Assembly: GCA_016748015.1 (NCBI GenBank)
Contig: JAAOMT010000776.1
Span: 617,496 to 681,495 of the forward strand
DNA: 64,000 bases
Direction of reading: 5' to 3'
Source: Geosiphon pyriformis
Lineage: Eukaryota; Glomeromycota; Glomeromycetes; Archaeosporales; Geosiphonaceae
Positions 512-37,802 of the stretch are shown piece by piece. Below the pieces are notes generated by a model. It saw nothing but the letters and a program-made list of their open reading frames with translations. It did not search any database and was not told where the DNA came from. The first letter of the stretch is position 1, and each line of letters begins with the position of its first letter. The position numbers were made by a program, and so were the translations under genes.

Positions 512-1100
512 TTTTACTTCGAACTGTAATATAAAGATCACACAACCAAGTCAAGAGAGTATAACACACGTTCTAAAAAAAAAGGAAATCTTACAGAGTT
601 ACAAAGAGGTCAAATATGGGGACAAAGACAAAAGGATTCGTTTTTTATCGGAGAATGCGGCGATGACGTCCTGAATTCAGTTTTTTGTAACCAAACAAAA
701 ACTTGCAGTCAATCACATTTAAACCTGGATCTTAAATATATTTTAGAAAAACTTTTTTCTTTGTCTTGTAAATTCTATGTTTACAAAATTTTATAAAAGC
801 ATATTTCCTATGTTTAAGAAAATAAAGCTTTAATAAAAATAATTAATTAATTTAAATAACAAAAATAATAACATATTTATTAATTTTATCTAATTTAGAA
901 TTTTAAATAAATTAAGTTAATTTGTGTTAATTTTTAATTTAATAATTTATTTATGTTTTTATACAATAATAATAGCTTAAAAAAATAAAAAATAGTAAAA
1001 AATTCAAAATCAAAAAATCAAAAAAATCAATTAAAATTTTAAAATTTAAAATTTATTAAATAATATGTTTTAATTCAAGTTAATATAAGTAAAAACTTCT
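512..1100. other. PP2C upstream flank and boundary to AT-rich block
   Basis: Intergenic. Bases 512-720 have mixed composition and are the likely promoter of the minus-strand PP2C gene. From about 720 onward the sequence becomes an almost uninterrupted run of A/T words. I see no gene here; 820-1080 is simple AT-rich text. Confidence 0.5.
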
Positions 1101-1169
1101 TTTTCTTCTATGTTTAAAATTCTCTAAAGAATAATTTTTTTGTAGTAAATTTGAAAGCTGTTTCAAATA

Positions 1170-2950
1170 ACAATATGTCCAAGAAAAAAGCACTTAAAAA
1201 AGTCTTTTATGGTCTTGTTAATAGTACTTTTTCTCAAAAAAAAAGAGTATCTGTAAATAATATTAAGTACTTTAATGATAAAAAAAAATTTTTTTGGTCA
1301 AATCTGATTTTGGCAATAATATATATTTAGATATAGACAATAAATTAAGTGATAGTAAAATTAGTAATGTCTTAATAAGTACTATTAGTAGTTTTTTTTT
1401 GGCTTAACTGTAACAACTTCTAAAGTTAAAAGATTTAATACCAGCTTAAATTGTGGTTTTCTTATTAATACACTTAATTATGAAATAAATAAAAATAAAA
1501 AATCTTTTTTTTTTCTTTTAATATCTCTTTAAAAAAAAAGTGGATAGATTCCAAGATTGTAAAAATTCAAATAAAAGTATCTGTTAGAACATTTTTTGCT
1601 TTAAATATCAATCTTTTAGCTATTAAAAAAAAGTCAATAATAGTAAAAACTTAGGTAATTAAGAAACTTTTTTCAATAATCAATAGTTTTAAGAAGATTA
1701 TTAGATCAATATTTGTTTTAAAAAAAATATGAATAAGACTGTATTATTGGCTAAAAAAAAATTAATCAAAGTAAACAATAATCTAAAAAAACAAGGAATG
1801 TATTTAGATCAAATTGTGATAATCAAAAAAATTTTCATGAATATACTAAAAAAAATAATCATTGTTATAATATCTAAGTTTGGTCAAATTGTATTAATTT
1901 ATTTATAACTAATTAAATTGTGACAAAAAACTGTAATAGAATTTGCCAAATCAAGTTAAGCTAATTTGTTAGCATCAAAATAGTTATTTTTAATTAGAAA
2001 AAATTTAATACATGTGGCAAAATCTGTGGAAAATCATGATACTTGGATGTTAAAAATCAATTCAAGACTCTTTTGTTTATTTTTTCAATAGAAACAACTG
2101 CTTATAATTTTGGTGCTCTATTAAAAAAGACTAGTAAAAAAATCTGGTAATAGAGTTTGTTATATTGTAATTGGTTTTGAATTAAATGAAAACTAAAATT
2201 TGCTTTTTATATAGAGCCAATTTTTGGTAGTGTAAAACTCTTTTGGACTAAAATAAATTTGGTTTAATATAAAAAATATGAATATTTTAGTTATTTTGCT
2301 TTGAAGTATAGTGTTTCTGATTTTTTTACTTCTCTATTTTTGAAAATATTTAAAAAGTTTGTTTTAGATGAAAACTGCTTTTAGCTGGTCAAGTTGTATG
2401 CCAAAAAAAACATTTCTATCTATTGTTTTATTGTTTTTAGTAACAAATTATGGGCTTAAATAGTCTTGGCAGCTTCTGTTTTAAACAATTTGTTTTTTGG
2501 TTTTGGTTCTGGCTTTTCTCTTCTTAGTGCTTTGAATTCTAATAAAAAATTTCTTTCTATTTTACCAGATGATTTTTTTTTAAATACTTGTTTAATCTCT
2601 TTAAAATGTTTTTTAAAGTTTTTGGCAAATCAAGTATCTAGTATTATATGAAAATTAAGCTTTATAAATTTAGTATTTTTGGTACTTACTTCTCAATTCC
2701 TCTTTTTTACCATGTTTGTACTATTAAATTCAAATTTAAATTTAGATATAATTCTGAATAATTTATCTGTATTACTTGTTTTTTTTTAGTTGTAAATAAA
2801 AAGATTTTGGATTTGAATTTAAGTAAATCAAAAATTCTGACCACCAAAATAGATGGCTTGAAATTAAAAATGATGGCTTTTAAAGTTTTAATTAATTTAA
2901 TATTGATAAAGTTGGATTAGTTGTGTGCTGGCTCAGGTTTTTCTGTAATT
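1170..2950 (+). pseudogene. LINE A ORF1 remnant (nucleic-acid-binding gag-like protein)
   Basis: Broken ORF1. From 1177 it reads SKKKALKKVFYGLVN; about 1535-1700 reads KKWIDSKIVKIQIKVSV then FALNINLLAI; about 1770-1890 reads NNNLKKQGMYLD followed by VVIIKK-like text; 2466-2648 is a 61-codon open stretch ending FLKFLANQVSSII, like the coiled region near the end of ORF1 in this LINE family; KLDLLCAGSGF-like text closes it near 2930. LINE C at 21954-22640 contains the same blocks (for example LFVLDINFLAI and NNNLKKQEFYLD), which confirms a repeat family inside this window. Several frameshifts and many stops make it non-functional. Confidence 0.7.
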
Positions 2951-4809
2951 GTTTTATTTTAATGCAATTAGAAAGATTTTAAATTTCGTAGATCAATTCT
3001 GGAATAATCCACAAAAAATTCTTGTAATCTAATTGGTGTTTAGCATTATTAGCATAGAGAATTTAATAATACTTTATTGATTAAATACTTCAAATAAAAA
3101 TCAAAACTAACAGTAAAAACATACTTTTATAAACACAAAGTTTCAGAATTCATAAGAATCTACACAATTTTACATAATAGTTTTTTATTAAATTGGATTT
3201 AAAATTATATCTTGCTTTATAATAAATTCCAAAGACTTATCTTGTTTATTTGAATCTTTTACCAGTGAATATGACAAAAGTCAATTAGTAAAATATAAGA
3301 CCAAAAAAAAGTCAAAAATAGCAACATGTATCAGTTAGTATTACAGCAGAAAAAATAATGGAAATAACTAAGTATCTTCCTAGATTAACTATATTACTTG
3401 ACTCTCTAAACAATTACTCTTTATGTAAAAGACATTATAATCAAATTATTATTAAAAAGTTTTTTATTAAACAAATTACTAAATTAAATAATTCAACTTT
3501 TTTAGATTTAGAAAAAACAGAAAGAAAAAGACCAAGACTTTCTAATGATAACAAGTTGTTAAAATTAGAAAAAACTTTTTCTGATTTTGAGTCTAAGTAT
3601 TTTTGTCAGATCCAATATATAAAGTTTATATAAAATGGATACAAGAGCTAGAAGATATTAATCAACAATTATTATCTAAGAATACAACATTAAAGAAACA
3701 ATTAGATAAAGCATTTAATAATCAACAAGATCATATTAAATTCATAATAGAAATTACCAAAAAAAAACAAGATAATTTGTATAATGATATAATAAGTTTG
3801 AAAAAAAATCATAAATGTTTTAGTCTAAACAGTTTTTTAAAGTATTGTCCTTTAATATGGCTTGCAAAACAAAATCCAGTCATTGTAAGATTTATTGAAA
3901 TTCTTACTCATAATGAAGATGAATATTAAAATGAAAAAAAAAACTTTTTAAATGTGCTGTAACAGTTAATGCTATATATGGATCAAGGCACTTAAAATAT
4001 GTTTCTGCTATTAATTTAGCCACTTTAGCAATTAAATATTCAGTAGCAAGATTAAAAATGGTCATTAATATTGATAATTATATTATAAATTCTGGTTGTT
4101 ATAAAAAGTTTATTAACTGATTAGAAAGTTTAACTATAAAACAGTTAAAGCTTTCCAAAGAATTTTTATTTTTAGTCTTTGACAATGAACAAAAAGGTTA
4201 AAAAAATTACTTAATTGGTGTGAAAACGTATTTATTGGGTATATATCAGAATCTTTATGCTTTGAATTTTATTACTGATCATATTTCTTTTCCTAAGGAA
4301 AGGTAAATTCAAACTCCATTTCCAGTTAATTTGCTCAAGCAATATCTTATTAACAAACTTGTTCCTGGAGGATCCCATTAAACCATTATTTTTACTTATA
4401 AGTCTGTTAATTTTTTCTTCCAATACAGAGAAAAAGTAATCTTATTAGCCAAATTTTGATCCAGAGTAACTTCATTAATACCTGCAACAACAGTTTTTAA
4501 AGCACTATCAGTTTCTGAAGCACTACTAGTCTCCAAAGCACCAAGAATAGCAGTATTGTACTATATGTCAACTATTATTAAAACTTTTATAATACCTACA
4601 AACAACAAGCCAAATATAATAGTTCTGTTATTGTTTTCTAATAGCAGTGGCAACTTATAAAGAAGAAGAGTAATTAAATATTGTAATATTTCAGAAATTT
4701 TGTTTAGTGTTCTATAATTATTTTTAGAAACTTCTTTAATTTTTTTTACTACCATAAAAAAAATAATTTCTATTGACAAATTGGGAAATTTTTCTAACTG
4801 TAATAACTG
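2951..4809 (+). mobile_element. Unknown insert splitting LINE A between ORF1 and endonuclease
   Basis: ORF1 of LINE A stops near 2950 and its endonuclease starts near 4810 (text I-TGA-KIVTCNVYDINIS). The 1.9 kb between them is foreign to the LINE. It carries two overlapping plus-strand ORFs (3358-3633 and 3603-3929) and a broken continuation to about 4210. A minus-strand open stretch (4779-4561) is Leu/Ile-rich and unconvincing. No terminal repeats or target duplication could be seen by eye. It is probably a transposon or a relic of a repetitive host-like gene family. Confidence 0.5.
3358..3929 (+). pseudogene. Lysine-rich coiled-coil protein of the nested insert, frameshifted
   Basis: Two ORFs that look like one broken gene. 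The first (3358-3633) begins MEITKYLPRL and contains SLCKRHYNQIIIKK, a Cys/His-containing block, then a basic KRPRLSNDN segment. The second (3603-3929) contains QELEDINQQLLSKNTTLKK, a probable coiled coil, and ends THNEDEY. After 3960 further text (YGSRHLKYVSAINLATLAI, then VFDNEQKG) continues in another frame. I associate similar text with repetitive ORFs in arbuscular mycorrhizal fungi but cannot name the family or function. It is less decayed than the LINE around it, consistent with later insertion. Confidence 0.45.
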
Positions 4810-7800
4810 ATTTGATCTGAAAAATTGTTACATGTAATGTTTATGATATCAATATTTCTACTAAATAAGAAAATATAGTTGTTGGTATACAGAATTAAGT
4901 AATATAATCTCTATTATATGGAAACAAAGTTGAAGTTTAATATTAGATTATAAATAGCAAGTAAGTTTGCTAAGATAAAAATTTTTATATCTGGTTTGAA
5001 TAAAAGCTTTTTTAGTACTAAAGTGCAATTATTATAAACAATTCTTTGGCTTATTATGTTTTAAAAATAAAAAAAATCTTTGGTTAAATCATTTTAGTAC
5101 AATTTTTGTTTAAGAATAAATTATTAATTATGATTTTAGACTTATATATAAGTGCTTCTGTTAAGGCTAAATTTGGTTAAGTATTAAAAATTAACTTTTT
5201 TATTGCTAAAACTGTTAATTTCAGTACTTTTATAATATTGGGCAGAGATTTCAATAAAAAAAGTTCAAAAAAAAATGTAAGTTTTAGGTTTTGTGTGAAT
5301 TTAGACTTAATTAACTTATTTAATAGATATATTTTAGCCAAGAATTCTATTTAGAATAATTTTAAAGACATTAAAAAGATCATCAATTTTATTTTTGTGA
5401 ACCAAAATCTAGTGTTTGCAGTTATTAATTATGGGATTGACATTGTGTTTGAATTTTTTAATATTAATTAAAAAGCAGTTTCAATTATAGTTAATTTGAG
5501 TGGTCTTTTGAATATTTGTCTTAATAATAATTATAAGCAGACTAATAAAGATAAATAGTCATTACAATTTAAAAAATGGTTATTGAAAAAATTTTTGGGA
5601 AAAATAATTGATTTTAATAGTACAAAATATTGTGACAATTTAAATGCTATATGAAAAATTCTAAAGAAGATAATGGTAAGCTTGCTGATAAAATGTTTTT
5701 TAAATTTTGGTTTAGTAAATTTGAATGTTTAAAAAATAGACAATTATTTAGGTTTTTTAAGCTAAAATTGTTGATAGCCAAAATTATGAAGAATTTAAGT
5801 TCAAATCAAAATTCAAATACTGTTTATCTTATTAATATATGAACTAATATTAATAATAAAAAGGCCTCCAGATTGCATATTATGATTAAAAATAATGTAA
5901 GTTTAAAAGAAATTCTATATTATCTGTTAAGAATTAAGAAAAAGTATTATAAATCTAAATATTATAAATTCAAAATTGCTTGGAATGTTTTTATTACAAA
6001 AACTATTAATAAGTATATAAAAAATTTCTGTTCTAATAAGAATAAAATAATCAGAAGCATTTTGGATTAACTATTTCAAAAAATAATACTTAATTATCTG
6101 GTTGTTAATAATAATTTAATTCTAGAGCCATGTAAAATCAAGTTTATGATTAACATAATTATAGAAAAATGAATAAAATAACATATAGTGTTTGGTGCTC
6201 TGTTTAATAGATGATTTAAACAATATGATCTTCTGAATTATATCAATAATAATGCTTTCTCAAAAATAATATGTAATATTAAATTTGATAAGTTTTTGCA
6301 AATTGTCAAGAATTTACCTAATAAAAAAGCTATTGGTCTCTCTAATATTCTTAATAAACTCTAAAAACATAGTAATATGCAAGTTTTGAGTGGTTTATTG
6401 GATATTTTCAATGTATATTTAGCATTAAGCATGATTTCTACATAGTAGAAAAGAGCTTAGATTTTTATAATACTAAAGTCATATAATTAAAAAAAGATTC
6501 ATATAAATACCAGACCAATAGTCTTGATTAAAACAACTCGAAAAATTTTATTTAAGATTTTTTCAGATTGGATCTTTTTAGCTTGTAGTAATTTTAATGT
6601 TTTGTATAATAATAATTTTTTAGTTTTAAAAAACACATCTATTTAAATTCTGATTTTTGCTGTTGGTTTTATTATTAAAAATACATTAAAAAAGGACAAA
6701 AAGTTGTGGTTAGTTTTTCAAAACATACATAAAGCATACAATTTTATTGGGTGATATTATTTAAAAAACAGTTTGACTAAGATCAAGATATATTTCTATT
6801 TTATTATATTTTTTGAAAGTATATACAATAATTAGATCAACTAGGTAATAATAGATTCTGGGATTACAGAGAGGTATATTATTTACAATGAACTAGATCA
6901 GAATAAAGTATTTTTGTCTCTGCTATAAAAAATTTTTTGCAATTTTTTGCTTTGTAAAATTAAGAAACATGACAGTTTATATAGCTACAAATTAAATTCA
7001 AAATTTTTTACATAAATTAAAAAACAAGATTTCAAAAATAGCATAATATCTTTTTTGATAGCAAAAGCTTTTATAAATGATACAATTTGGATTGGAAATA
7101 ACATGGCCACTATTTAGCATATTCTGAATATAGCTAGCAAATTTTTTTAAATTAATAATATTTTAATTAATACAGATAGAACAATTGCCATACTTATCAA
7201 TTAAAAAGTAAAAGTTTTTTATTTAGTAATAAGTGAATTGGATATTTCAATAACTAAGAAGAGTAAATTATATAAATACTTGGATATTTTTTTGTTTACA
7301 AATAATTTTTCTAAACCAAGTCTTACTAAAGCTTATTTGGATATTAAGTTTTTTACAAATCTGGTTTTAAAGAAAACCATATCTAATAAGCAGTTTTTTT
7401 ACCTGATTTTGGCTGTTTTACAACCAATAGTTAGTTACAAATTACAATTTAGTCATGTTTTAACAAATGTTTATAAAAAATAGAACAGAATATTAAGGAA
7501 AAAGCTTAAATTCAAGACCAATTTACTTAAAATTTTTTTCAATAAAGCCATTGTTTATTCTAAATTATATGATTTAAAATCATTTAAATAATTTTAAGCT
7601 GAAAATTTTTTAACAAATTTGGTAATTTTTGTTAACTCAAAAAATATTCGTAGCAGATTGTTTGAATACAGAGCTATAGATTTGCAGATTATTAATTAAA
7701 TATCTTGACAATTTCTTTGCTTTTTAATTAAGTTATTAATTAATTATATAAACTACTTTTTAGTTGGTGTAATTAACACTCTAGTATTATGTATGTTATC

Positions 7801-9295
7801 TTTGAACAATAATATATTTAATATTTTCCAGATTAATAGTAGTATGGTTATTGCAGATGTTTTAAGCTTAAAATAGTATTTGAGTGTAATAAGTTTACTG
7901 AAAAGATTTGGTATTATTTTGCAAATTAGCTTTTGGATTATTATGACACATATTTTACATAAAGTATATTTTACAAGTAGAAAAAACTAAATTTTAAGGG
8001 TCTAGTTCCTAGTTGGTTTAGTTTATTGATCAAATTTATTAAGAGTAGTAGTCTAAATAGTAGTAATGCTTTGGTTTTTTATTCTATTTCTGTTTAATGC
8101 TTGGACAAATTTGGTTCTGTTTATAAATATCTTTTAAAAAGTGTATTTAATAGTATAGTTGTTTATACAAATAATTTGGTTAAGAGTTTGAGATTTGTAA
8201 ATACTTGTAATAATACTGTTGTCTACTTTTTAGACATTGACATAAATATAGGAATTAGGATAAACAGTTTGCTTTTTTAATTCTAATAAAACTATAGGCT
8301 ATTGCTCTTATTTTGAAATGTGTTTTTGTGTTTAGCTCAGTTGTATTATTCACAGATAGTCAGATATTATTAGATATAAGTATCTTAATTAGAAAAAATA
8401 TTAATCTTAATTTTTATAATAAATACTAAATAAAAAAAAAACATATTTATTATATTATTATGTCAAAAAATCTGTCAATCAATTAAAATAAGATCAAAAG
8501 TTATTCTGAAATTATTGACAATGAGCAGACTAATTTTTTTGCCAATACTGTCACCATATTTGATTTTACACTGTTTGTTAAAATGCCATATTGTTTTCTT
8601 ATTATTGAAAGCAAACTTGTCTCTAAAAATGTCCATTATTTTATTAGACATCTTTTTAAAGCAATCAGTATTGTTGATTAAAATTCCAAATGTGTTAATA
8701 ATATTGTGGACAAGTCTTTATATAACCTAATTAATATGTATAAAATTTTTAATATATAGTATCCTAATAGTCAAGTTTATTTAGGTTTTATTAACTTAGT
8801 TTCTACAACACTTCAATATTACTTTATAAAAACTTTACACTATTAGTTGCTTATAATTAAGAGAAAAAAATTATATAATTTAAGTTATTCTAATATGTTG
8901 TGTATTTAATATAAGTTAGTTGAGAACTTTGACAATATGTTTTCTTGTATTCACAATAACTATACCAAGTTGAATTTGATTTTAAAATTTATTGAAATAT
9001 GGACTGATTTGTTAAGTGTCTATGCTATTAACAATATAGTAATTCAGTCCTTGTATAAAACTAAATTTTCTAATTGTTTATATATGTTGTTGACTAAAGA
9101 CTTTATAATAAGAGAATAAGTAACAAACACAGTATATTTATTAAATAACAGATTTAATAATGTGTTGTTAGTTATTAACTTGGTTTAAAGTTTTGCCAAA
9201 AGTCACAAATCTATCATGTAATTGTTAACCACCAAACTGAGAATGCATTATAAAAAACATAATTTTTTGCCATATAATACAAGGGAATATAAAAA
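4810..9295 (+). pseudogene. LINE A ORF2 remnant: endonuclease, RT, RNase H, C-terminal domain
   Basis: Order of recognisable blocks: endonuclease start TCNVYDIN (about 4830); FIILGRDFNKN (about 5235), the catalytic DFN-type box; FKDIKKIINFIFVNQNL (about 5360-5410); RT segment KNLPNKKAIGLSNILNK (about 6310-6360) and NTRPIVLIKTTRKILFK (about 6507-6560); late RT/thumb FLIAKAFINDTIWIGN (about 7055-7100), a changed form of the catalytic DD box region; ISITKKSKLYKYLDIFL (7245-7295); RNase H VVYTNNLVKSL (about 8160) and a C-terminal block 8937-9117. In-frame stops fall where the family has Trp (TGA, TAG, TAA) or Gln (TAA, TAG). ORF2 is interrupted at about 9295 by a Tc1 element. Confidence 0.72.
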
Positions 9296-10620
9296 ATATT
9301 AGATACTTTTATAATATATTATATAAAAAAACTAACTTATGAATCATTAATTTTTTATTATTATATTAAAATACATGTTAGTATTTTGTTTAACTCCTAT
9401 TTGCTTCAAGAATAGCTTAAACTTGACATGATATAGACTTGATCAAATTACAATAGTAATTTACAGGTATTGCATCCCATTTTTCTTTAACCTACTGTTC
9501 CAATTGTACAATATTTGAGGGTTGTAAATTACATTGACAAAATTTAACTTCAATATATGACCAAAAATTTTCTATTGGAGTAATATTAGGATTTTGTGCT
9601 GGCCAAGAAAGTAATTCAACATTTGAAGAGATAAAAAAAGAATGTACAACTTTTGATGTGTGGATTGGTGTATTGTCTTCCTGAAAAAAAAACTTTTTTT
9701 TAGTTTTTTTTGCATAAAGTTTTACCATAGAAATTGTATAATTAGCCAAGGTTTTGTGGTATATAACTTCAGTAATATGACCAACCAAAGGAACTAAAGG
9801 ACCCAAACCAACCCATAAAAAACATTCCCAAAACATGTGACTAAAGCTTTTTCTAACTATAACTGTAATACAATTCTTATAAAACTCTTCAGAAGGTTTA
9901 CACCATACACATCCAAATTCTGTAGTTCTAAATTGTGTATATGTAGATTCATCTGACCAAACAACTTGTTTAAAATCTTCTACTGTTCAATTTTTATAAG
10001 TACAAGCTCATTGTAAACATTTTTCTTTATTTAATTTGAAAATTAATGGCTTGAAACAAGGAATGTACAAGCAAAGTCCTTCTTGAGCTAATCCATTTCA
10101 AATAATTTGTATAGAAATAGATTTGTTGATATCTTTAATAAAATTCAATTGTATTTGAGAAAGAGTTTGACAGCAGGTTTTTTTATTCTCCATTATTAAA
10201 TATTTGAGTTATTTACATATGTATTTGTCAAGAATTTGTGGTTGGCTTGTTTGTTTTTTAGGAAGTTTTTTTTAGCTTGTATGGCTTCCATATACATATT
10301 ACAGAAGAATGTGAACATTCAATAATTGTGGAAATCTTACTGTTTATATGTCCTAACTTTATTGCTGAAATAATCTCTCCTTTTTGATATTTAGAAAGTT
10401 TTTTTCCAAGACATATTTAATGTGGTAAATTTTTTCACAACAAAAATATTTTATATTTTATATATATGCATATAATCTACTGTTGTGTTTTACAAGGACA
10501 TGATTTATGTTAATTTGTAGATTATAACTATATGTAATTATAAAAAAATTATGGCTTAAATTGGTAATAGTATTACAATATATAGTCTTTTTTATATATT
10601 ATATTAAGTATTCAATACTT
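9296..10620 (-). mobile_element. Tc1/mariner DD34E transposon, decayed, inserted in LINE A
   Basis: Minus-strand transposase spans about 10440 to 9400. The N-terminal HTH text is SKYQKGEIISAIKLGH; the core has VVWSDEST (first Asp), FFQEDNTPIHTSK (second Asp) and WPAQNPNITPIENFW (Glu). I count 34 residues between the second Asp and the Glu, so the DD34E triad is retained. The longest open part is 9836-9492. Stops include TGA at three positions where Trp is expected (for example CLQ-TGA-ACTYKN-TGA-TVEDF) and TAA at Gln positions near the C-terminus (SCQV-TAA-AILEA). AT-rich imperfect inverted ends are possible at about 9302-9340 and 10575-10616, but the exact ends and TA duplication are not certain. 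Confidence 0.8.
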
Positions 10621-10659
10621 TTTATACTCTCCTGTAAGTTTGTAATTTTAGTAGTATTA

Positions 10660-11330
10660 TTATGGTTGAAACTCATAATTTTTATTAGTTATCACATATA
10701 TTAGCCACTAATGTCATATAATTAGCCACTCTATTTTTAGATAGTGATCATTAACCTAGTCGCTGACTTGGTCATTGACCACTTTCATTAGCTATATAAG
10801 CAATGAGTCTCTTAGCAGTAGAAAATCATCTCTCAGACAAGAATTAAATAAATAAAAATAACAACTTTTATCTCAATCACTCTCTTATCACTAATTTCCC
10901 TTTCCCTACCTTCAAGTATCTGAACATTTTAGAATAAAAGATTACTTGTTGGCCTTTTCATGACATATATAATTGTAGTATTTGAAGATTATTTGTATAA
11001 ACATGACTGAAGAACACAAGTTGATACCTAATATTGAATTCTAAGAGCACCGACATGAAGCATAAAATTATACCAGTGGTGATCAATTGTTGACAGTACG
11101 AACTATCCTTCTACCTTCAGATTCCCTTGTTATCTTTTGAAAAGAATAGCGACTGAGATATTTTATAAGACTGATCTCACACATTAAATCCATACTCATT
11201 CAATTCACTCATTAAAGTTGAATCCCCTTTGATTATTTCCATCACCCTATAATCCTGTTCTCTCTTGCTATCTATTAGCTTGTTACTCCAACCCGTAACA
11301 GTATCTATCTTAATATTCATATAATCTCTT
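10660..11330. mobile_element. LTR-like, less decayed insertion
   Basis: About 640-670 bp whose composition is clearly less A/T-skewed than both flanks. It begins near TGGTTGAAACTC (10663) and ends near CCCGTAACA (11300). Inside are a TATA-like GCTATATAAGC at about 10790, an AATAAA-rich A tract at about 10845-10860 and a CT-rich run after it, a layout expected of a retrotransposon LTR. I found no second copy in the window, no clear target duplication and no ORF, so this is a suggested solo LTR rather than a proven one. LINE A 3' text resumes directly after it. Confidence 0.35.
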
Positions 11331-11540
11331 AAAATAATTCATAATTTTGGTTTTAGATTGGATGTTTATATTTGTTTTGGTTTATATTCTTATTTATTTA
11401 GTGTATGTTTTAGTTTTTTGTGTGACTTTTTTATTGTAGATAGTTTAAGTGTATAATACTGTTTTAATTGGTCCAAGTAATTGGTTATATATAGAAAAAA
11501 CATGAGTTATATTTAATATAGAATTTTGTATGGTTTTATG

Positions 11541-13979
11541 ATTTTAATTAATAAAAAAATAAAAATACAAGTAAAATAATTTCAAATTAAGCTAAATATA
11601 AATTATTATTATAAAAAACAAAACAATATTTATTTTAATAATAATAAAAATGTTCTTAAAATATTTAATAAAGTTATTATTATTAAAATAAAATTGTTAA
11701 TTTATAATAATATATTATAATTTATTATATAAAAAATCTAAAAAAAACAATTTTTTATTAATTTTTTACTTATAATAAGATTATCAAGATTTAAAAAAAA
11801 TTTTAATTTATCTATTTGTCTTTTTTTTATTTTTTCTTAACTATTTTTTTAATACAAATACTGATAAAAATAATTAAATATTATTTTCAAAATAATAAAA
11901 CTAAAAATAATATAAAAAGTATTAATAAAATATCTGATTTAAATAATTTAAAAAACATAATACTAGAAAAAACCAGTTATATTAATACAAATAGTTCAAG
12001 TAATAACAAATTTATAGACAAATTTACTTTAATAAACACTTATATTAAAGTTTATAATTTGATAAAGTCTTCTAAAAAATTATTTTTTAATATATTAAAT
12101 AATAATAAAATTCTTAATTTTTTATTATTAAGAAGATTTTAATTGATTTTTTAAATTAATTTTAAAATTAGCATTAATTAAATATAGAATTATAAAATTT
12201 ATTAAAATATAACTTATTAGTTTTTAAAAAAAAGTGCTAATTAAATTTAATAATATAGAAGTTATTAACTTAGTTGTTTTTAATAATCAATTTTATTGGG
12301 CAAAAATTTTATCTGTATAGTTAAAATCAATAATAATAAACAAATATAGAATTTAAGTAATTACTATCATATTTTTTTATATATTTTGCTAATAGGTACT
12401 ATTGTTCATAATTTTTTTAATCTTTTGTTGTCTTATAATAGAAAAATATGTTTTATTTTATAAAACTTTGTTTTATATATGTGTGTTTATTGTGCTGTTA
12501 TATATTTTAAGTTTATTAATATCAGGTATATTACTATCTGTTTAATTTTGATTTTCAAGGATATTAGCTTAATTTAAGCTAAATTGTTAATTTTTGTACA
12601 TACTAAATATAAAAATACAGTTATATTTTTAACATCTGTAAGTTAAGTTTAAGATTTTTTGGTTAAAATTTGAAAAAATTTTCTGAATTTAATAAAAAGC
12701 ATTATTATTTATAGAAAAATAATAATAATATAAATAGCCAATAGCAAAATAAAAGATTATTAGAACATATAACACTAAAAATTTTAAAAATATTAGTAAA
12801 GATTTTAAAAATTCTATAAATTGTAGAAATATTGACAAAAATACTAAAAATGTCAGAAATTTCAACAATAATTTAAAAAAATTGTAAAAATTTCAGAAAT
12901 CTTATATTATAAAAATTTATGTATATATATTAATTAATAATTTAAACAAAAAAACAAACAAGCTTATTTTAAATTAGTTTAGTTACTTCTATTTTTATTA
13001 ATAAATTTAAAATCATTAAAATTAAAATTAATATCATAATTATATTAATATTATTTGAATTTATAATAGCTACTTAAATAAACTTAAAACAATAATTTTT
13101 AATTATAGATATTAACAAGATATTAATTATTACAATATTATTTTGTTAATTGTATTTGTTTAAATTATTAACCAATTATAGAAAAACATTAAAATTATAA
13201 TGTTAAAAATTGTCTAATAAAAATATTGTTACCAAAAAATTTTTTATTCATTTTTTAATATTGTAAATACTATTTTGTTATTAATTGTGTTTTTAATAAA
13301 AGTTAATAAATCTTTAATAAGCTAATTTTTTTTTAAAGTATTTTTCTATACTTTAAATTATATATATTATTAGACTTATAATAAAATAACCAATTCTATA
13401 TCAATTATTTGTATAATTACTTTATAGTAAAAATTGATTCTTTTATAAAAAATCTTATTTGTAAGTTTTTTAAAATATATGTAGTTATTTATAGTAAAAG
13501 TCAAATTTTTTACAAAATATTTTGATTGTAGATTATCTAATAATATAAAAAAACAAAAAAAATAAAAAAATATGTTAAAAAAATTATTTTAAATTCAAAC
13601 TTAAAAGTTATTAATAGTTTATTAAATTTAATAACTGGTTAATTTTAAATTATTAGTGTAAAATAATTAAATTTGCAATAAAAATAATTAAAAATTTTTA
13701 TGTTTTCAAAGTAAGTTTTATTAGAATTAATTTATATAAAAGATACTAAAAAAATGTTAATTTTAATTAAAATAAATACTAGTTAATATATTTTTTTTAA
13801 AAAGAAAAGCTTTTTTTTTATACAATTTGTTAAGTATTATTATTTAATCTAATATTTTTTTTTTCTAATATTTTGGCAGATTAAAAATATATTTTATCAA
13901 ACTATAAATAGTTATAAACTCTAATAACCAAAAAAAAACTATTTTTACAATTCAAAATAGCAATTACAAATTTAATATA
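11541..13979. other. AT-rich decayed sequence, no gene recognised
   Basis: No convincing gene. A 108-codon Asn/Lys/Ile-rich open stretch at 11816-12142 begins after a hydrophobic run and has no motif I recognise; low-complexity AT sequence often gives such ORFs. The segment may include the gag/protease end of the gypsy element that becomes recognisable at about 13980, but I cannot read it. Confidence 0.4.
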
Positions 13980-16230
13980 ATACTATTTGAATTAATCAAT
14001 GCTTTTATAATATTCTACTGGCTAATAGATATTATATACTCTAGAATTCTGTAAAAATCTATAGTAGTCTACTTGGATAATTTAAATGTGTTCTTACCAA
14101 TATTTGAAAATATTTTAAATATCTATAGTAAATTTTTGAAAAATTTCAAACCACTGAACTGAAACTTAATCTTAAAAAATGCTTTTTTAAAAAATCACAA
14201 TTTACTTTCCTAAAGCACATTATTGGAAAAAAAAGAATAAAACTTGATTTTGCAAAAATTAAGAAAGTCAAAAATTTTCTTTATCTTTAAAATCTGACTA
14301 AACTTCAAGGATTTTTAAGATTTGCTTTATATTACTAAAGATTTGTCAAAAACTTTTTAATAATAGTTCAACTATTAAATCAATTATTAGCTAAAAATAC
14401 AACATAAAAATAAAGTAAAAAACAAGAATAAATATTTAACTACTTGAAGCAAAGATTTACTAAAGCTCTTATTTTAGTATATTTTAATTTTATTAAAAAA
14501 TTTGTACTTATAACTAATATCTCTAGAACAGATCTAAGTGCTGTATTATTACAACAAAATAAAAAAAAAGAATATGTAGTTGTATATACCAGCAGAAATC
14601 TAAGCATAATTGAAAAAAATTACATAATTTATAAAATAAAATGTCTTATAATATTACAAATTACAAAAAACTTATTTGGTTGATAAACAAAAACTCATTT
14701 AAAAGACATTATGCCAGATAAGTTACTACTTTACAACTTTATATATATAATATTATTTATAAAAAAGGAACCAAAAACACAAATACAGACTGTTTATTCT
14801 AAATAAAACATATATAACTATTAAAAATTACCTACTACTTAATTAAAATAAACACCAAAACACATTAATATCTAATATATTATCTTACAACTCTCTAATT
14901 ACCAATAAAATTATTGTTGAAAAAACAAACAAAAATTCAGAAACAAACTAAACATTATCTAATTAAAAACAATATACTATACCAATATCACTAACATAAT
15001 TTATTCCAAGTGATTACCAAAACTGAAAAAAAAATTATTTTTTACAATATATACTTAGATCTAAATACAAGACACTTTGCAAAAAAAGCCATAATTCAGC
15101 AAACAACTAGTTAGTACTACTGGCCAAAGATACATGTTAATATCATTTAATACATTTACAATTACAATATATGTCAAAGAAAAAAAAATCAAAAGCAACC
15201 AAACTGTTATAATCCATTAAAATAGAAAAACTATTTGACAGAATAAAAATCAATTTAGTAAAACTATTAACTATTATTACCAAAAAAAACTAATATATTA
15301 TAATCACTATGAACTACTTAATAAAATGGCCAAAAGCAAGGATTATTAAAACTGCAGATGCTAAATTAGTTGCTGACTTTGTATATAAAAATTTAATTTG
15401 TAAATATGGTTGTTTAAAAAAGCTACTCTTAAATTAAAAAATTTACTTTGTAAACAATTTGCTTATTAAAATTAGTCAATATTTTGAGATAAAATGACCT
15501 TTTTCATTACTTTACCATCTATAGACAAATGAATTAGTAGAATGTTTTAATAAAATATTATAAAAATTACTGGTAAAAATAACTAATAAAAAAAAAAAAA
15601 AATGGAATTTATTTATCTTTTTAATTTTATTGGCTTATTAAACATTAAAACATAATACTACAAAATTCACATTATTTAAATTAGCATGTAAAAAAAATGC
15701 TATATTATCTATAAAATTAATAATAAATACTTATTCAACAAAACCAATAAATAAGAACAACTTACAAAAAACTATTAAAAAATAGGCTTACAAACTGTTA
15801 GAAAAACTAAAAAACAATTGTCAATATACAACTAATAATATTAAATACTTCCAAAAACAACAAAAAGTTTAACATAATAGCAAACTTCCAGAATAATTTA
15901 TTGTCTACAAAATAAAAAATAAAGTTTTATTATATTAAACAAAAACAGAAAAACAATAAAATAAAAAATTTAACAATAAATAAAACAAACTTTTTTATGT
16001 TTACAATGTCTTAGATAACAAAGCATATAAATTATATTTAGATAATAAAATTTCGAAACAAGTTGTACATAATAACTGATTAAAAATCTACTATTAACAA
16101 CAATTATTTGATCTGTTAATGTTTAAATTAGGAACACATATACTAATTATGTCTTTTGACCAAATTATATAAGACTTAGAGCCAATAGTAATTATTGAAC
16201 ATTATCTAAGAAACAATTAATTCGATTAAC
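13980..16230 (+). mobile_element. Ty3/gypsy retrotransposon remnant (RT, RNase H, integrase)
   Basis: Plus-strand relic with stops throughout. RT end: LKLNLKKCFFKKSQFTFLKH (about 14160-14220), then FLRFALYY (about 14310). RNase H: 14444-14683 is open and contains FVLITNISRTDLSAVLLQQN and VVVYTSRNLSIIEKNY, the expected order for a Ty3-type RNase H. Integrase: MNYLIKWPKARIIKTADAKL (about 15310-15370), CKYGCLKK, TNELVECFNK (about 15525) and LLAY..LKHNTTKFTLFKL (about 15625-15680), which match the order of the integrase core. The tail FYVYNVLDNKAYKLYLDNK (about 15995-16050) resembles the usual C-terminal integrase domain. LTRs were not found. Confidence 0.78.
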
Positions 16231-18179
16231 TACATTTGAATTATCACCATTAATATTTAAAAAAAAAATTAAACCAATTTCAAAAATAGTTAAAAAAATT
16301 AGAAACATTAAATTATTAAAAAAATTTTTTTAAAATTTTAATATATAAAAATAATTCATTTTAGTATTTATTTATTATTTATTTTTATTATTATAAATAT
16401 TGACTCTTTTATTACAGAATCAAAAAGTGGATATAGTAATAAGTAAGAGTTCAGATGTGGTTACTAGTAGTAAGACTGTGATAAAAGTGATATTAATAAA
16501 TTAAGTGATTGTTAAAGAGTTTAAAAAAAAATTGAATAATTTGTCAAATATGATTATAGACTTGTTAGCCAAGTTAAACAATAAAAGTTTGAGTTCAGAT
16601 ATTTTTTTTTATTAATGAATAATTTGATTTGAAATATTATTACATGCAATATTAAAGATATAAACAATTCTGCAAAGCAAAAGGATATTATTTATTAGTA
16701 TAGAAATATGAACAATGTGATTTTGATTATTACTGAAAAGAAAAGTTTGCCCATAGATTACTAATAAGTTTGATGGTATTTGTGTATTCATTTTTGGTTT
16801 GAACTCTGGTTATTTGGATTTTAGTGTTATTATGAATATTGCCTTAGCAAGACATGTATATAAGATTTCTGAGGTTTCTGATTGTCTTCTTTTTATTAAG
16901 TTGCTCTTCAAAAATAAACTTTTTGTTTCAATTTTGGAGCTGTATGATAGTGTTTTACTAACAGTACATTTGTTTTAGACTGAGAAAATTATTTTTTTAA
17001 TTGTTAAAACTGTAAATGAATCTTCTTTTGTTATCTTAAATAGAGATTTTAATAAAAATAGTTCTTGCAAGTGTGTTAATTTTAGAAAATGCCTTAGTTT
17101 GAAGCTGGTCAATTCACTAATTAGAAGTTTGGTTGCAAAAAATTCAACATAGAAAAATTCCAGGAGTGCCAAAAAAACAATTAATTACATGTTTATTTCT
17201 TTGAGTTTAATTAATATAGTAGTGAATCATAATATTAAGAATATTAGAAAGTACTTCAATATTAATCTCCAAGCTATTTTTGTTTTTGTGAGTTTGAGTA
17301 GCTTATTAAATATACAACTCAACTTTTTGTGCAAACAGACAAATAAAAATTATTGGAAGTTTGACATCAAAAATGCTAATGAAGTAAAATAGACCAGATT
17401 TAAAGATACTATAGCAGTTAATACAGTGTTGTTTTTTGGTAAGTTTGTTACATTCAAGAGATTCTTGGACCTAAATACAATATGGAATACTGTTTGCAAA
17501 GTGGTGTGTCTATTAGCTAATGAGATTTTCAGAAAAAAGTGATTTAAGAACTTTGATTGTGTTTTTACTAAAGACTTTTTTAAGTTTCATAAATTGGAAA
17601 TTTTGGTTTTGAAAATTGTTAAGTCTTTATATATTGGTATTATTGGCAAGTTTGTTTCTTTGATGAATTGTTGGGTTTTTTGGACAGTAATAAAGCTTTG
17701 AGTATTCAGGTTTTATTGGATTCTGATGTAGATTTTGATTGTATAAGATCTGTTTTTTTTGGTATAAAAAGATTGTATTATGTCTCTAAGTTTGCTAAAT
17801 TACTAAGGGCTGAGAAATTGAATATTAAATTTGCTATTAAGAAATAGATAGAAAGTTTTATGGTCAATAAAAACCACTGTTATCAGTGGTTTTTGTCAAT
17901 ATTTGGAAACATTTTTTAGTTCAACTGGTAATACATATTACCATAATTATGCCATTAACTATAGCATATTATGGGTGTATGAACTGTTTTAGTAGATGGA
18001 AAAGCAAAAGAAAATACATGATAAAGTCATTAAAAGTAAAAAAAAGTATTGTTATTATTATTTGTTTTTGAACAAAAACTAATCTTAAGTATTTTAAAAG
18101 GAAAAAAAAGTCACATCTCTTTATATGTATCAGAAATACAACTAACAACAAAAGTGAAACCAACTACTCTAATAAATAC

Positions 18180-19340
18180 TTAACTAGAATTTTTTTAATT
18201 AGTTATTGAAAAGGTGTGGTGTTTAAATACCCACTTTGAAAACAAAGTTATAGGAATTATAAAAGAATTGTGAAAGTAAAACATAACTGAAATAGATTTC
18301 AATTAAACTTTTAATTATTAAGACTATTCTCTAACAAGATAATATTTTGTTACTTATTTTTATATTTAACAACTTGTTCAGTGAAACAAAACTTAATGTA
18401 AAATAGTAATAATATATTATTTAAAAGATCAGAAATAATAAAAAAACTTAAAATAATAATAACAAGTAGGTAAAAGATTATAAACAATATAATTCCAAAT
18501 GGTAATAAGGAATATAGAAAGCCATATTTGAGATTGTGATAACAAGTATTTAAAGCATAGAAAAAAGGAAAAAAAAAGTGAAGAGTAGAGAAAAAAACTA
18601 ATTGCTCACTATAAAACTATAGCAAAGAGTTGGCTTAGTATTTAATTGGTACTTTCCTGAACTAACAAAGAGGCTGTATATATAGCTAAATTACATCAGA
18701 TCTATATACTATATTAAGACTATTTAAAATACATCAATTATTTATATATATTAAATTGATTAATTCATAATAAGCTTATTTGGTCTGTTATTTATCCAAA
18801 AACTAGTAATTTAGATAATCAGATTTAGATGTCTGGATTTAGAATATTGATTATAAATCAATAATACCAATTGTAATTATGATCAACATAATTAAAAGTA
18901 AATCAATTGATTACATTTCTTGGTAACTACTTTTAACTATTGATTGCAAATTTGGAATGTTGGATTGTTCTAATAAGGGCATATAAGAATCTTGGAGCAT
19001 AACAAAGTCTATTGTTATTAAATTACATACATCAATTATTTATTTTTATTGGTGTTTCTTAGTTTGCCAAGATTTTTTTGTATCTAACTTAGTTAAACTG
19101 TTGGATTGTAACATATTTTTTTGTTGTAATTGGACTGATTGCTAATCATTTATTTTCAGATTGCCAGCTGATTTTGTTGATTAAATACGATGATATAGGT
19201 TTTTTTTGCATGGTTTTAATGTTAATTTCCATTGTATATGTTGTAATTTTTGCATTAAAAAGTATGAAAATCTTCTGGTAACATCACACAATTAGAAGTG
19301 TATTGGAGCATCCTTTTTAGGAAATGGTTTTAAATTATTT
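18180..19340. mobile_element. Probable insertion within LINE B
   Basis: LINE B ORF2 cannot be followed between about 18180 and 19340, a longer distance than the family should have between these blocks. The interval has no ORF above the noise level and no terminal repeat I could see. Non-LINE origin is inferred only from the break in LINE text. Confidence 0.35.
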
Positions 19341-20209: not shown

Positions 20210-20760
20210 AAATAATAAACAAAACAAAAAAAATAAAATAAAATAAAAAAATAAGCCAAGACAAAAAAGAGTTAATATCCTATTAATAGCCATAATCAAG
20301 AGTTATTGGTTCAGTATAATTAAGTATTAACAATTATCAACATGAATTGTTAATAGTAGAAAGATAAATTGTGATATTAAAAAAGTATTTTATTAATATT
20401 TAATGTTTTCTATTTCAAGTCATAAAATATTATTATATGAAAAGATAGATATGAAATTGGAACTAGAAGTTCTAAAACTAAGAATTCTGTCTTTTTTGTT
20501 TTTAATATTACCACTATATATACCTAAATTTTATTGTACAAGATTTCTTGAATTCCTCAATTTTCTAACCAGAAATTCTGGAATTCTGGAATTCTGTGAT
20601 TTTTTACATGGAAATTCTGAAATTCTCAAATTCTGCAATTCCTCTGAGAAGAATCCTGGAATTTCACTTTACTATTTCTATTCTAATTGGCTAATTATGT
20701 ATTAATATATAATTCCTATATTCTATGAGTAATAGTGTTATTTGGAGCAAGAATTTAAAT
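20210..20760. mobile_element. Probable second insertion within LINE B
   Basis: LINE B text stops near NIHNSVH (about 20185) and resumes after about 20760. The interval includes an A-rich run at 20210-20260 and an ORF (20403-20705) made of short repeated GGAATTCTGNAATTC-like words, which look like a local tandem array rather than a protein gene. Identity unknown. Confidence 0.35.
20560..20660. repeat. Degenerate short tandem repeat of AAATTCTGGAATT-type words
   Basis: Between about 20565 and 20660 the words AAATTCTGGAATTCTGGAA, AATTCTGTGA, GAAATTCTGAAATTCTC and AAATTCTGCAATTCC follow one another with an irregular period of roughly 9-10 bases. A similar sound is heard at 12780-12900 (AAAATATT / AAAATTTCAGAAAT). 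It may be part of the second insertion in LINE B. Confidence 0.4.
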
Positions 20761-21869: not shown

Positions 21870-22640
21870 ATGAATGGTTTTGTACTTAAAAAAAGATCAA
21901 CAAAAGTTTTGACATTGAATTTAATTAATAAAAATTTGGTTTAGTAACAGAAAATGTCTTTAAAAAATATTAAACATTTAGGTAATAAAACAGATTTGAA
22001 ATTTAAAAAAGCTAAACAGATTTTTGGACAGTTCAATAGAATAAATATAAATAAAAAAATGTTAATAGTTTTTTTTACTAACAATAAAGCTAATTATAGA
22101 GTTAACAGTAAAAGTAAAAGTCATTTTGACTTAAAAATAAATATTTTAAAAACTAAAAAAATAAATATTAATAAAATAGTTGGCTTTTCTATTAGAACAT
22201 AAAAATACAGCTTAGATAATAATAAAGTTATGCTTTTTTTTTATTTTTTAGTGCCTTTAAAAAAATAATTTTAAAATTGTTAAAATTTAAATAAAAGTGC
22301 CAATTAAAAAATTATTTGTTTTGGATATTAATTTTTTAGCAATAAAAGACAAATTGGCTACAACAAAAATTCAATTTATCAGAAAATTTTTTTCAATAGT
22401 CAATAGTTTTGAAAAAGTCATTATTCTTTTAAAATTTGAAAAGATTATTAAATTTACATTTACATCAAAAGAAAATATAAATAAAACTGTTATTAATTAA
22501 AAAAAAAGACATTAAAATAAACAACAATCTTAAAAAACAAGAATTTTATTTAGATTGAGCTGTAATAATCAAAAAAATTCACATAAATATGTCAAAAAAT
22601 ATGATTATTATTGTAGTAATTGAATATTATTATTAATATT
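21870..22640 (+). pseudogene. LINE C ORF1 remnant, 5' part only
   Basis: Directly downstream of LINE B's 3' end, on the same strand. Open blocks 21954-22199 (starts MSLKNIKHLGNKTDLKFKK) and 22297-22497 (LFVLDINFLAIKDKLATTK, then IQFIRKFFSIVNSFEK) share order and wording with ORF1 of LINE A. A third block (NNNLKKQEFYLD-TGA-AVIIKK) follows at about 22525-22575. The text is lost after about 22640, so this is a 5' fragment. LINE B 3' end followed by LINE C 5' end gives a head-to-tail arrangement. Confidence 0.6.
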
Positions 22641-23999
22641 TTATTATTGTAATTTTTAATTTTTTGAAGATTTTAAATCTTGTTATCTTAAAAATTAATA
22701 TTTTATATAAGTATTATAAATTATAAAAAACTTTTAAATATTATTATTGTTATAAATATTAAAATTTAGATTATTTGGTTTTAAAGTACAAAATATTATT
22801 ATTTTTTATTTTAGGTATGTATTTTAATTAATTGTTTTTCTTAAAACTTTTAAATTACATATTATTAAAGCTAAATTATATACTTTAATTTTAAGTTCTA
22901 CTGTTTTATTTTTTTTGTTACTGGTTTTTTTATTATTGTTGCAGTTTTTAATATAAACTTTTTAATTGACTTTTGTTTAGTTTTTTTGAAATTTGAATTG
23001 AATGTTTTAGTTTTTTTAGTTAAATCTGTTATTAAATCAATTAATTTTTTGATTGTTTTAATTATTTTTTTATTAAATACTTTTTTTGTTTTGTATAAAA
23101 AATCAAAAGATATAATTATTATAGTACAAAATAAATATTTAATTTTATAAATTTTTGAATAAAATTAACAAAAAATTAAAACTAAAATTAATATTAAAAC
23201 TGGTTGGACTTCACTCATTAAATGCATTAATAAAAAAATATTAAAACTAATCATATTAATATTTATAATAATAATTTAAATATATTAGATAAAAATATTT
23301 ATATTTAATTATTGACTTTTTAAAAATATTAACCAATTAGTTTTCAATTAAATATTAATAAAACTGCTAAGTAAATAAATATTATTATTATTAATAGTAA
23401 TATTTTGATTATAATTATGTATGAAATATTTTTTCAAAATAAATTTTCTTTTATAGATTTAATGTAGTTTAATTTAAATTAGATTTATGTTTAGTTATAT
23501 GTAAAAAATACATAAATTATGTTTAATTTAAGATATTTAGATTATTATATTGTATTAAGTTATGATTAAATTATATATGTTAAATAAAAAAACAATATTA
23601 ATTTTAATATTAAATTTTTATTTTATTTATAAGTAAAGTTCAATTACTATTTAATATAATATAACTATCTAAAATTCTAAATTAAATATAACTCATGTAT
23701 TTTTTACATATAATCAATTACTTAAATCAGTTTAAGCTATAATATATTAATACTTCAAAAAAAAACTTATTTAAAAAAAACATTTTTTAAACAATCTTAA
23801 ACAATATAGCATTATTATTAACTAATTCAACTAGTTATTTAGCTGTTTTAAAAGCATTAGTCTTAATACTAATAAATTCATGTTTTTATAGCAATATTAA
23901 GTTAAAAAACATGTTATTATTAATAACAGACAGATTTATATAAAGACCAAACATATCAATATTCTTATAATTATATTTAATCTTTAATATAACTATCTT
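22641..23999. other. AT-rich decayed sequence, no gene recognised
   Basis: Nothing beyond A/T-rich text. Short stretches around 22900-23080 may be an overly decayed continuation of repeat coding sequence, but no motif can be defended on either strand. Confidence 0.4.
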
Positions 24000-25100
24000 T
24001 TATTCTAATTTACCAACTGCTTTGCTAAAAGTACTTATATATACCAAAATTTTATTGACTTTAAAACTAAGTACATTATTTAAATTCAGATTATTATTAA
24101 TAAATTGTTTAAGTACAACAATTAAAGATCTAATTGGCTTAATAATAAACTTAACCAAAGCAGAAAGCTTGGCCAAATCAGACTTTAAAAAGGCCAATTA
24201 AAAAAAAACTGCAGAAATATTAACCAACATATTAGTAAAAAAAAGCAAAACTAACTGAAAAGCTAGAAATTAAAAAAGACATCAGAGCAATAATTTTAAC
24301 ATAAAACTTGATACTAATAAAACAAGACATAAAAGTGTTGAAATTTTTAAAAAAAAGAAATAGAAACATTTTATAATCAACAACTAAATAGTTTAAATCT
24401 TAATATCTAAAACAGTATTGACATTTAAAAGTTTTTTATTAAATGTAACACTTTTTTAAAGTACTAATTTTAAAAATAACAGCATTTAAATTATTTTATA
24501 AACCAAACATAACCAGAACAAATTGAAAACAATAACCAGAATTAAATAAATAAAGAATAAAACAAGTTTGATTATCAACTTAAAAAATTATATCACTGAT
24601 TTTATAAGCAATATAACTAAAAAAAATTAATTAACTTGGTCTTGAACTTATTATGAAACAGAATAATTTTATTTAAATTTTTTAAAAAAAATCTTAATAT
24701 TATTTTTGTTTAATAAAACTGATTAATAATTCAAAGCAAATACAACAAGATCTAAAGTTTTGAAGTAAAATATTACATATTGCTAAACACTAACTGGTTT
24801 TAATATAACACAAGAAATTTTATCAAATACACTAAGAACTATCTTAAAATTAGCAGTAGGTATATCTAAAAGCATATTATACAATACAATAGCAGCAAAA
24901 AAAGAACCAAACTCAGAAATTGTCAAGAACTCAACAATTTTAAGAATGATTAAATAAATAAAACTTGTAAGCTTAACCAAAAAAACAGTTTTTAAAAATT
25001 TTTGTGAAACAAATTCCATATAAAAAAGCTTTATATTGTCTTTTAATATTGATTTTATATCCAAAAAACCATATACAAACTAAAAAACAGTTTTAATATA
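24000..25100 (-). pseudogene. LINE D ORF1 remnant (related LINE family), minus strand
   Basis: Minus-strand ORF1 of a LINE related to but distinct from A-C. Block one, 25064-24783, has NIKLFYMEFVSQKFLK and then FKIVLSVFDKISCVILKPV. It continues past a stop as QYVIFYFKTLDLVVFALNY near 24720-24780, which fits an RRM-like nucleic-acid-binding ORF1 of the zinc-knuckle type. Block two, 24197-24000, reads LAKLSALVKFIIKPIRSLIV and NKILVYISTFSKAVGKLE, like the coiled C-terminal end of such ORF1 proteins. Several stops and frameshifts lie between the blocks. Family placement is from recognition, not search. Confidence 0.5.
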
Positions 25101-25930
25101 AACCAATTTAATCTTAAAGATAATACTAAACACCAGAATAAAGACTATTTATTCAGTAAATCTTTAATAATTAGCAATAATTTTTTAATTACCACTAGTA
25201 ACAACATCAAAAATCATTGGAAAAATTGATTCAGTTTTTATTTAATCAGTCCAGTTTTCAAGAACAGATAATCCAACAAAAAACTGTTGTTTTGCTTTTA
25301 AAACTGGTAATAGTCTGCCAAAAAACACTATATTTGGCAATACAATAGTAAAGATGAGTAACTGTTCTTATTTTTTTAAATTTTTAGTCTTTTTGATCAT
25401 TATTTTTAAAGAAGTAATACTAAAAACATCAAGTATAGAAACTATAATCAGAAAAACCAGCTTGTTAATTAATCTATTATTAAAAACTTTTGGGCTTTTG
25501 GAAAATATAAAGACAATACTGAAACTAATTCAAATGTGTTTCTTTGAAAAGACTTTAATTGGTAAAAAACCAGTCAAAAATAAAGAAGATGCTTTAATGG
25601 CCATTAAAAACAGCTTTTCACTATTACTAGCTAAAGAAAAAGCTTCTAAAATGTTTTGTTTAACTGTTTCTACAACAGAAAGAACTTCTTTGATTAAAAC
25701 TTTGTAAGATATTAAAAAAGAGATATTAATTACAGCTTTTTACTCTTTGCTCTCGTTATAGTTATAAAATTAAAAAAACAAAAAGTTTTTTTAATTAGAA
25801 ATTTTTTAAAATTTTTAATATTGTTAATTAAAAATCAGATTTTTAAATTGGAATCAGGATAATGCTTAATTATTACATAAATTACAACTTCAAATCATAT
25901 AATAAAATTAATATAATACTCCATGTTATT
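25101..25930. other. End of transposon block, no intact gene
   Basis: The plus-strand open stretch 25354-25707 (117 codons) lies in text likely to be the upstream, antisense part of LINE D; no motif is visible, so I do not call it a gene. AT-rich wording ends near 25930 and is replaced within about 50 bases by mixed-composition sequence. Confidence 0.4.
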
Positions 25931-37768: not shown

Positions 37769-37802
37769 TTGGTTAGAGAGGATGCTGCCTTTTCATCTTT
37801 AA

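Follow-up and report, generated by a model that had tools for sequence, protein, structure and literature searches.

The 64,000-nucleotide window analysed here, from contig JAAOMT010000776.1 of the fungus Geosiphon pyriformis (positions 617,496 to 681,495 of the forward strand), contains between its positions 721 and 25930 a block of decayed transposons with gene-bearing DNA on both sides. A first-pass annotation had described this block as sharply bounded and decayed from GC to AT, and had seen in the decay the hallmark of repeat-induced point mutation (RIP) or of methylated-cytosine deamination. The question raised by this locus is which process has changed its cytosines, and whether that process is addressed to repeats or to places in the genome. 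Comparison of the elements of the block with their copies in the genome (124.7 Mb searched, in 406 contigs) reveals a cytosine-directed mutation pressure that is largely confined to one genomic compartment, is strongest at CpG and has a non-CpG context preference repeating in two families.

The depletion of the block is extreme: it retains 13 CpGs in 25.2 kb, corresponding to a CpG observed/expected ratio (o/e) of 0.05, where its composition predicts about 20 times that number. The flanks have ratios of 0.91 (1-720), 0.83 (25931-39000) and 0.86 (40000-64000). The GC content is 20.5% in the block versus 28.5-35.7% in the flanks. The positions of individual CpGs place the edges within about 200 bp:

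721-25930, no strand: CpG-depleted, C-to-T decayed block (CpG o/e 0.05), gene-bearing flanks on both sides
667-721, no strand: left edge, final flanking CpG at 667 and following CpG at 2987
25754-25968, no strand: right edge, single CpG at 25754 and dense CpGs from 25968
11400-14000, no strand: very AT-rich stretch, GC 11-19% by 1-kb window
22001-24000, no strand: very AT-rich stretch, GC 12-15%

These data confirm that the edges are abrupt, and the directionality of the decay is likewise confirmed. Elsewhere in the window, AT-rich stretches (38-40 kb and 60-62 kb) retain a CpG o/e of 0.73-0.92, so AT-richness alone does not explain the depletion, and the block stands apart as DNA of another kind. 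Its two very AT-rich stretches may represent a late stage of the decay.

Direction and sequence context of the changes

The direction of change was studied in copies of four elements of the block, with the Tc1-like transposon as the main test and inferred pairs of the LTR-like repeat (LTR, long terminal repeat) as its replicate (LINE, long interspersed nuclear element):

9280-10634, minus strand: Tc1/mariner-like DNA transposon of about 1.36 kb, with HTH_Tnp_Tc3_2 and DDE_3 matches, both under their gathering scores
10660-11300, plus strand: LTR-like repeat with 2369 first-look candidates genome-wide, of which some form pairs on one strand at a spacing of about 7 kb
4801-8460, plus strand: LINE-like element A, named from its motif only; 13 copies aligned, the CpG o/e of each locus being 0.00-0.07
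17878-18640, plus strand: high-copy repeat adjoining LINE-like element B, copies mostly matching at 83-87% over about 620 bp; 21 aligned

The Tc1 set comprises 30 full-length loci, the top-ranking ones of 40 that were scored out of 104 first-look candidates, with likeness to a decayed query as the ranking criterion, and changes were polarised against the majority of the 30 copies. C-to-T accounts for 1783 of the 2167 changes, divided into 784 at CpG and 999 at non-CpG sites. In the majority-open reading frame, 140 of the 141 gained stop codons are of the C-to-T/G-to-A type, 81 at Trp or Gln codons and 59 at CGA; TGG became TGA 26 times and TAG 23 times. The copy of the window (L009) carries eight such stops (four CAA>TAA, two TGG>TGA, one TGG>TAG and one CGA>TGA), and LINE-like copies also have stops where their sister copies read Trp. 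The loss of Trp and Gln codons to stops, on which the first-pass annotation had built its case, is therefore real, as is the predominance of C-to-T on which that case depended. Since Trp and Gln codons are never CpG, the stops it had quoted come from the non-CpG part of the C-to-T changes: methylated-cytosine deamination agrees with the extreme CpG depletion, but decay at CpG cannot make these stops, and a non-CpG part is needed.

Transitions make up 87-88% of the unpolarised pairwise differences in three families, with fractions of 0.87 and 0.88 in the 13-copy LINE-like and the 21-copy repeat alignments, respectively. The latter two alignments are saturated and show 3889 and 520 apparent T-to-C changes, many of which are most likely mis-polarised C-to-T changes; they were therefore used mainly for their unpolarised transition fractions. 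At 373 non-CpG sites in 24 Tc1 copies, shared changes match the expectation for independent mutation except in two copy pairs. The copies L023 and L029, which lie in a segmental duplication, have 66 C-to-T/G-to-A changes in common, and share 31 non-CpG changes versus 14.7 expected by chance. They have since diverged by 71 transitions and five transversions, indicating that the decay continued after the duplication. L029 was dropped from some of the pooled counts because its first part, which does not belong to the duplicated segment common to the two copies, has many other changes.

An element inserts with two identical LTRs, so that later differences between them can be read with no need of a consensus. 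In six LTR pairs, inferred from a same-strand spacing of 6.8-7.0 kb, 294 of 3820 sites differ, by 286 transitions and eight transversions (36:1), i.e., a divergence of 7.5% by transitions and 0.2% by transversions. With such an excess, transposon ages estimated from total divergence are unsafe in genomes of this kind. The same-strand pairs of this repeat, about 7 kb apart, would be useful for dating by transversions.

Both data sets give the same order of contexts, CpG > CpC > CpA > CpT. In 23 decayed Tc1 copies (the decayed class defined below, without L029), the per-site rate is 0.367 at CpG versus 0.105 at other cytosines, about 3.5 times higher and close to saturation at CpG, and the non-CpG rates are 0.14 (CpC), 0.10 (CpA) and 0.08 (CpT); in the LTR pairs, the fraction of polymorphic cytosines is 0.68, 0.30, 0.165 and 0.10 when the next base is G, C, A and T, respectively. 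The dinucleotide count proposed in the first-pass annotation thus returned a strong CpG bias and no CpA bias. Tc1 copies and LTR pairs agree in their rates for the 12 non-CpG trinucleotides (rho 0.73, p 0.007), and cytosines preceded by a pyrimidine (YpC) are favoured over those preceded by a purine (RpC) with odds of 2.6 and 2.5, respectively. The saturated 13-copy LINE-like alignment gives a different 3′ order (CpT 0.33, CpA 0.27, CpC 0.26). Plant-type decay of CHG methylation (H being A, C or T) was also considered and is not what the Tc1 copies display, the rate at CHG (0.071, 93/1316) being below that at CHH (0.092, 906/9852). The non-CpG changes of the Tc1 copies are not clustered around CpGs, their observed/expected ratio by distance to a CpG being 0.91-1.16 and the odds ratio beside a mutated CpG 1.16. 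No clear strand bias or strand-coordinated runs were found in the 30 copies, the most extreme z being -2.7.

Dependence on location and genome-wide extent

For the location test, the 30 Tc1-like copies were grouped solely by the CpG o/e of their 1-kb flanks, with a threshold of 0.5. The nine copies with flanks at or above this value lost 2-44% of their CpGs (keeping 56-98%) and 0.8-4.6% of their other cytosines, whereas the 21 copies with flanks below it lost 51-100% and 5.9-20.9%, respectively, without any overlap between the two groups in either loss. Other changes do not separate the groups (medians 12 and 10, p 0.80). Over all 30 copies, a high C-to-T load at CpG goes with a high load at non-CpG sites (rho 0.90), neither load is related to how many other changes a copy carries (rho 0.04 and 0.02), and the CpG load drops as the CpG content of the flanks rises (rho -0.71). 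Location therefore counts for more than repeat status, and the decay, which had been described as limited to repeats, is better described as limited to a compartment, since Tc1 copies with CpG-richer flanks are largely spared.

A second grouping, into six spared and 24 decayed copies, was drawn from the decay itself, and the flank-only grouping is the test that counts. The six best-kept copies have an ordinary spectrum (0.027 at CpG versus 0.020 at other cytosines), as expected of unmethylated DNA. These six carry a mean of 9.8 C-to-T changes per copy, versus 71.8 for the remaining 24; the mean number of other changes is 14.5 in the six and 9.2 in 23 decayed copies, and neither transversions nor T-to-C changes rise in the decayed copies. 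With one transposon present in two kinds of neighbourhood, in copies that differ little in their number of other changes, the genome offers a natural experiment on whether methylation can set the mutation rate, and these copies yield a prediction of where 5-methylcytosine, including non-CpG 5-methylcytosine, should occur.

The block is no exception in this genome. Among 20 random 1-kb pieces drawn from 38 contigs (31.6 Mb of the 124.7 Mb), the CpG o/e is below 0.3 in 13, 0.3-0.6 in three and above 0.6 in four, which makes the block one sample of an extensive compartment. Five of the CpG-depleted pieces retain 33-38% GC, a value that would fit a loss of CpG first and of the remaining cytosines later.

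Methyltransferase genes and candidate mechanisms

The first-pass annotation had proposed a check for cytosine methyltransferases of the RID/DIM-2 type. A genome search with PF00145 gave 10 exon-level matches at seven loci. The gene on contig C96 has DNMT1 as its top match and two BAH matches nearby. For the genes on C355 (L040) and C327 (L044/L048), the Neurospora DIM2 protein ranks first among the PDB chains (9BAP, 9BAQ and 9BAZ, which are DIM2, described as methylating both CG and non-CG DNA; PMC11315935); a BAH domain is present in the C355 gene, and the analysed piece of the C327 gene gave no Pfam BAH match. These two DIM2-best genes lie in DNA with a CpG o/e of 0.85-0.95. Contig C318 carries a gene at 788 kb (L039/L041), with DNMT1 as top PDB match and bacterial enzymes next, and a second locus 32 kb from it (L043, at 821 kb), neither with a BAH match. 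The C346 locus is presumably DNMT2-like from its motif, and the seventh locus is on C307. The check hence yielded two DIM2-best genes, by narrow scores, and for RID one possible candidate, a DNMT1-best gene lacking a BAH match. The model of the uracil-DNA glycosylase (UDG) family has a single match in the genome, an exon at C282:249200-251400 (L081), which we take to be TDG/MUG-like from its motif; the search reported neither an UNG-type nor a second glycosylase. Loss of T:G repair was considered as a cause and is not claimed, given this one TDG/MUG-like exon.

Judging from sequence, the decayed DNA is probably heterochromatin, a compartment in which CpG is methylated, other cytosines less strongly so, and in which deamination drives the decay. 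The block would be a piece of this widespread silent compartment, in which a DNMT1-like enzyme may methylate CpG, and DIM-2-like enzymes, more weakly, other cytosines. The 5-methylcytosines would deaminate to T over time, at CpG first and then elsewhere, with old elements at 11-15% GC as the putative end point. Decay would be set by location, and detection of a homologous repeat would not be its trigger. A stronger and more tentative formulation, which we consider rather doubtful, is that of a heterochromatin-addressed cytosine mutation system that acts in all contexts with a signature of its own (CG, CC, CA, CT; YpC), is not triggered by homology, continues after duplication and is strong enough to reduce a large share of the genome to AT-rich remnants devoid of CpG, with gene-proximal copies of those transposons largely escaping. 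If true, it would constitute a third route of transposon inactivation, in addition to RIP and to plain methylation, and might employ the two DIM-2-like enzymes.

Several observations weigh against a methylated compartment decaying by deamination. Three Tc1 copies (L016, L017 and L021) with flank o/e of 0.58, 0.66 and 1.17 still lost 35-44% of their CpGs, and two copies of the repeat at 17878-18640 (L055 and L067) decayed like the rest despite flanks of 0.57 and 0.50. Within the decayed Tc1 copies, the non-CpG load is only weakly correlated with other changes (rho 0.27, p 0.22), which does not demonstrate a clock-like decay. For the C355 and C327 genes, the margin of DIM2 over DNMT1 is no more than 1-6 bits. 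The 36:1 excess of transitions in the LTR pairs is larger than is known for ordinary decay of 5-methylcytosine in plants or animals, so that deamination may include an active step. Finally, only CpG methylation is reported for Rhizophagus irregularis in the account of PMC8647823, and Dim2 of Zymoseptoria prefers CA over CC (PMC8016269), whereas CC exceeds CA here.

An active deamination targeted to heterochromatin, in all contexts and with or without methylation, by a methyltransferase acting as deaminase or by a recruited deaminase, would account for the 286 transitions to eight transversions, for the YpC preference and for non-CpG changes almost independent of neighbouring CpGs. We nevertheless consider it unlikely, as the CpG preference suits methylation, strand-coordinated runs were not found and no candidate deaminase is known here, no search aimed at one having been made. 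It is also improbable that methylation is restricted to CpG and that the chromatin or repair of the compartment raises C-to-T at unmethylated non-CpG cytosines. The report of mCG alone in R. irregularis (PMC8647823) speaks for this explanation, together with the single TDG-like exon and no second glycosylase found by the UDG family model, and the YpC/CpC context matches no 5-methylcytosine preference that we know of. Transversions and T-to-C changes are not raised in decayed copies, however, and such a defect would therefore need to be specific to cytosine.

Classical RIP, in which duplicates are recognised by homology before meiosis and mutated in a RID-dependent manner mainly at CpA, predicts strong C-to-T change in repeats with stop codons, as seen here, and the C318 methyltransferase without BAH match could be RID-like. 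RIP is all the same very improbable. Neither the Tc1 copies nor the LTR pairs favour CpA outside CpG, TGG>TGA is about as frequent as TGG>TAG where CpA targeting predicts TAG, and RIP indices computed for the block are flat (1.05 for TpA/ApT and 1.09 for the substrate index). Clear strand bias or runs are lacking, and nine of 30 equally repeated Tc1 copies, in CpG-richer DNA, are spared or partly decayed. The hallmark that the first-pass annotation had seen therefore does not support RIP, and its interpretation as a whole is partly supported. Base-calling errors at methylated cytosines, which can cause errors in long-read assemblies, are a most improbable source of the pattern: the changes shared by L023 and L029, well above chance at non-CpG sites, give the appearance of inheritance, the loss is graded across copies and families, and some stretches reach 11-15% GC. 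Plain AT-biased drift, with decayed copies being simply older, has next to no probability in our view; AT bias is common in eukaryotic mutation, but spared and decayed copies have similar numbers of other changes, and the LTR pairs diverged almost exclusively by transitions.

The closest published case appears to be the mitotic, Dim2-dependent C-to-T mutation of Zymoseptoria tritici (PMC8016269), with a different context. As in the decay described here, transposons of that species undergo C-to-T change outside CpG as well, there linked to DIM-2 and with no need of meiosis. Mutations occur at CA in Z. tritici, unlike in Geosiphon, where CpG is by far the strongest target, CC exceeds CA and YpC is favoured; CT is the least methylated context there and the least mutated here. 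The transposons of basidiomycetes have a CpG-type C-to-T bias, including TpCpG in Microbotryum (PMC4352252). They resemble the present case in having CpG as main target and a DNMT1-class enzyme, and differ in the large non-CpG component found here; moreover, the TpCpG preference of Microbotryum is not observed (TCG 0.40, ACG 0.43, CCG 0.42, GCG 0.32). Neurospora-type RIP likewise inactivates repeats by C-to-T change, but the CpA context and homology trigger given as its features (PMC4352252) are not those of the Geosiphon copies. The context signature is thus distinct from those of RIP, Microbotryum TpCpG and Zymoseptoria Dim2 as described in PMC4352252 and PMC8016269. Among arbuscular mycorrhizal fungi, R. 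irregularis has a bimodal mCG with a high median in most transposon families, and for Gigaspora margarita RIP signatures are described as not detected (PMC8647823). CG methylation was measured in R. irregularis, whereas here a mutation spectrum was read from DNA sequence alone. The copies analysed here also bear on a wider point. To our knowledge, it is an open question how arbuscular mycorrhizal fungi contain their large transposon loads.

Other elements and neighbouring genes

Two further elements were recognised in the block:

14380-15900, plus strand: Gypsy-type fragment with domains of the RNase H-like and integrase zinc-binding types split over two frames (PF17919, PF17917, PF17921), without any open frame of 90 amino acids
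16600-17870, plus strand: 5′ part of LINE-like element B, named from its motif only, copies matching at 72-76%

The ends and the TA target site of the Tc1-like transposon were read by eye from the sequence. The naming of two LINEs, A and B, in the first-pass annotation found no backing in profiles: read-through frames of the LINE-like blocks have no Pfam match, and profiles of the read-through LINE-like alignments gave no useful match in PDB (one match at E 0.43, and none for another). The label accordingly rests on a motif reading, and we take element A to be a LINE from its motif. Contrary to the first-pass description, not every coding block has decayed to the same extent. The decay is real and uneven: stop-to-stop frames of 103, 110 and 164 amino acids survive at 3322-3929 and 9492-9986, and the LTR-like repeat retains five of the 13 CpGs of the block (10761-11294), for which reason it is read as younger. 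The stretch at 3322-3929, with the frames of 103 and 110 amino acids, is less broken than its neighbours and has no Pfam match.

Outside the block, positions 62680-63780 are GC-rich and hold an open frame built of tandem repeats of the TSFVPGPTRTAVVTAVGAGS type, which is broken by a run of N. Class 3 lipase-like genes are located at 45119-45925 and 58564-59600, the second slightly below the Pfam cut-off, and HMG-box genes at 47603 and 50485 adjoin these two lipase-like genes. HMG-box matches number 118 among the 150 candidates scored in the genome, two of them in the HMG-box genes of the window; an expansion of this family is typical of arbuscular mycorrhizal fungi.

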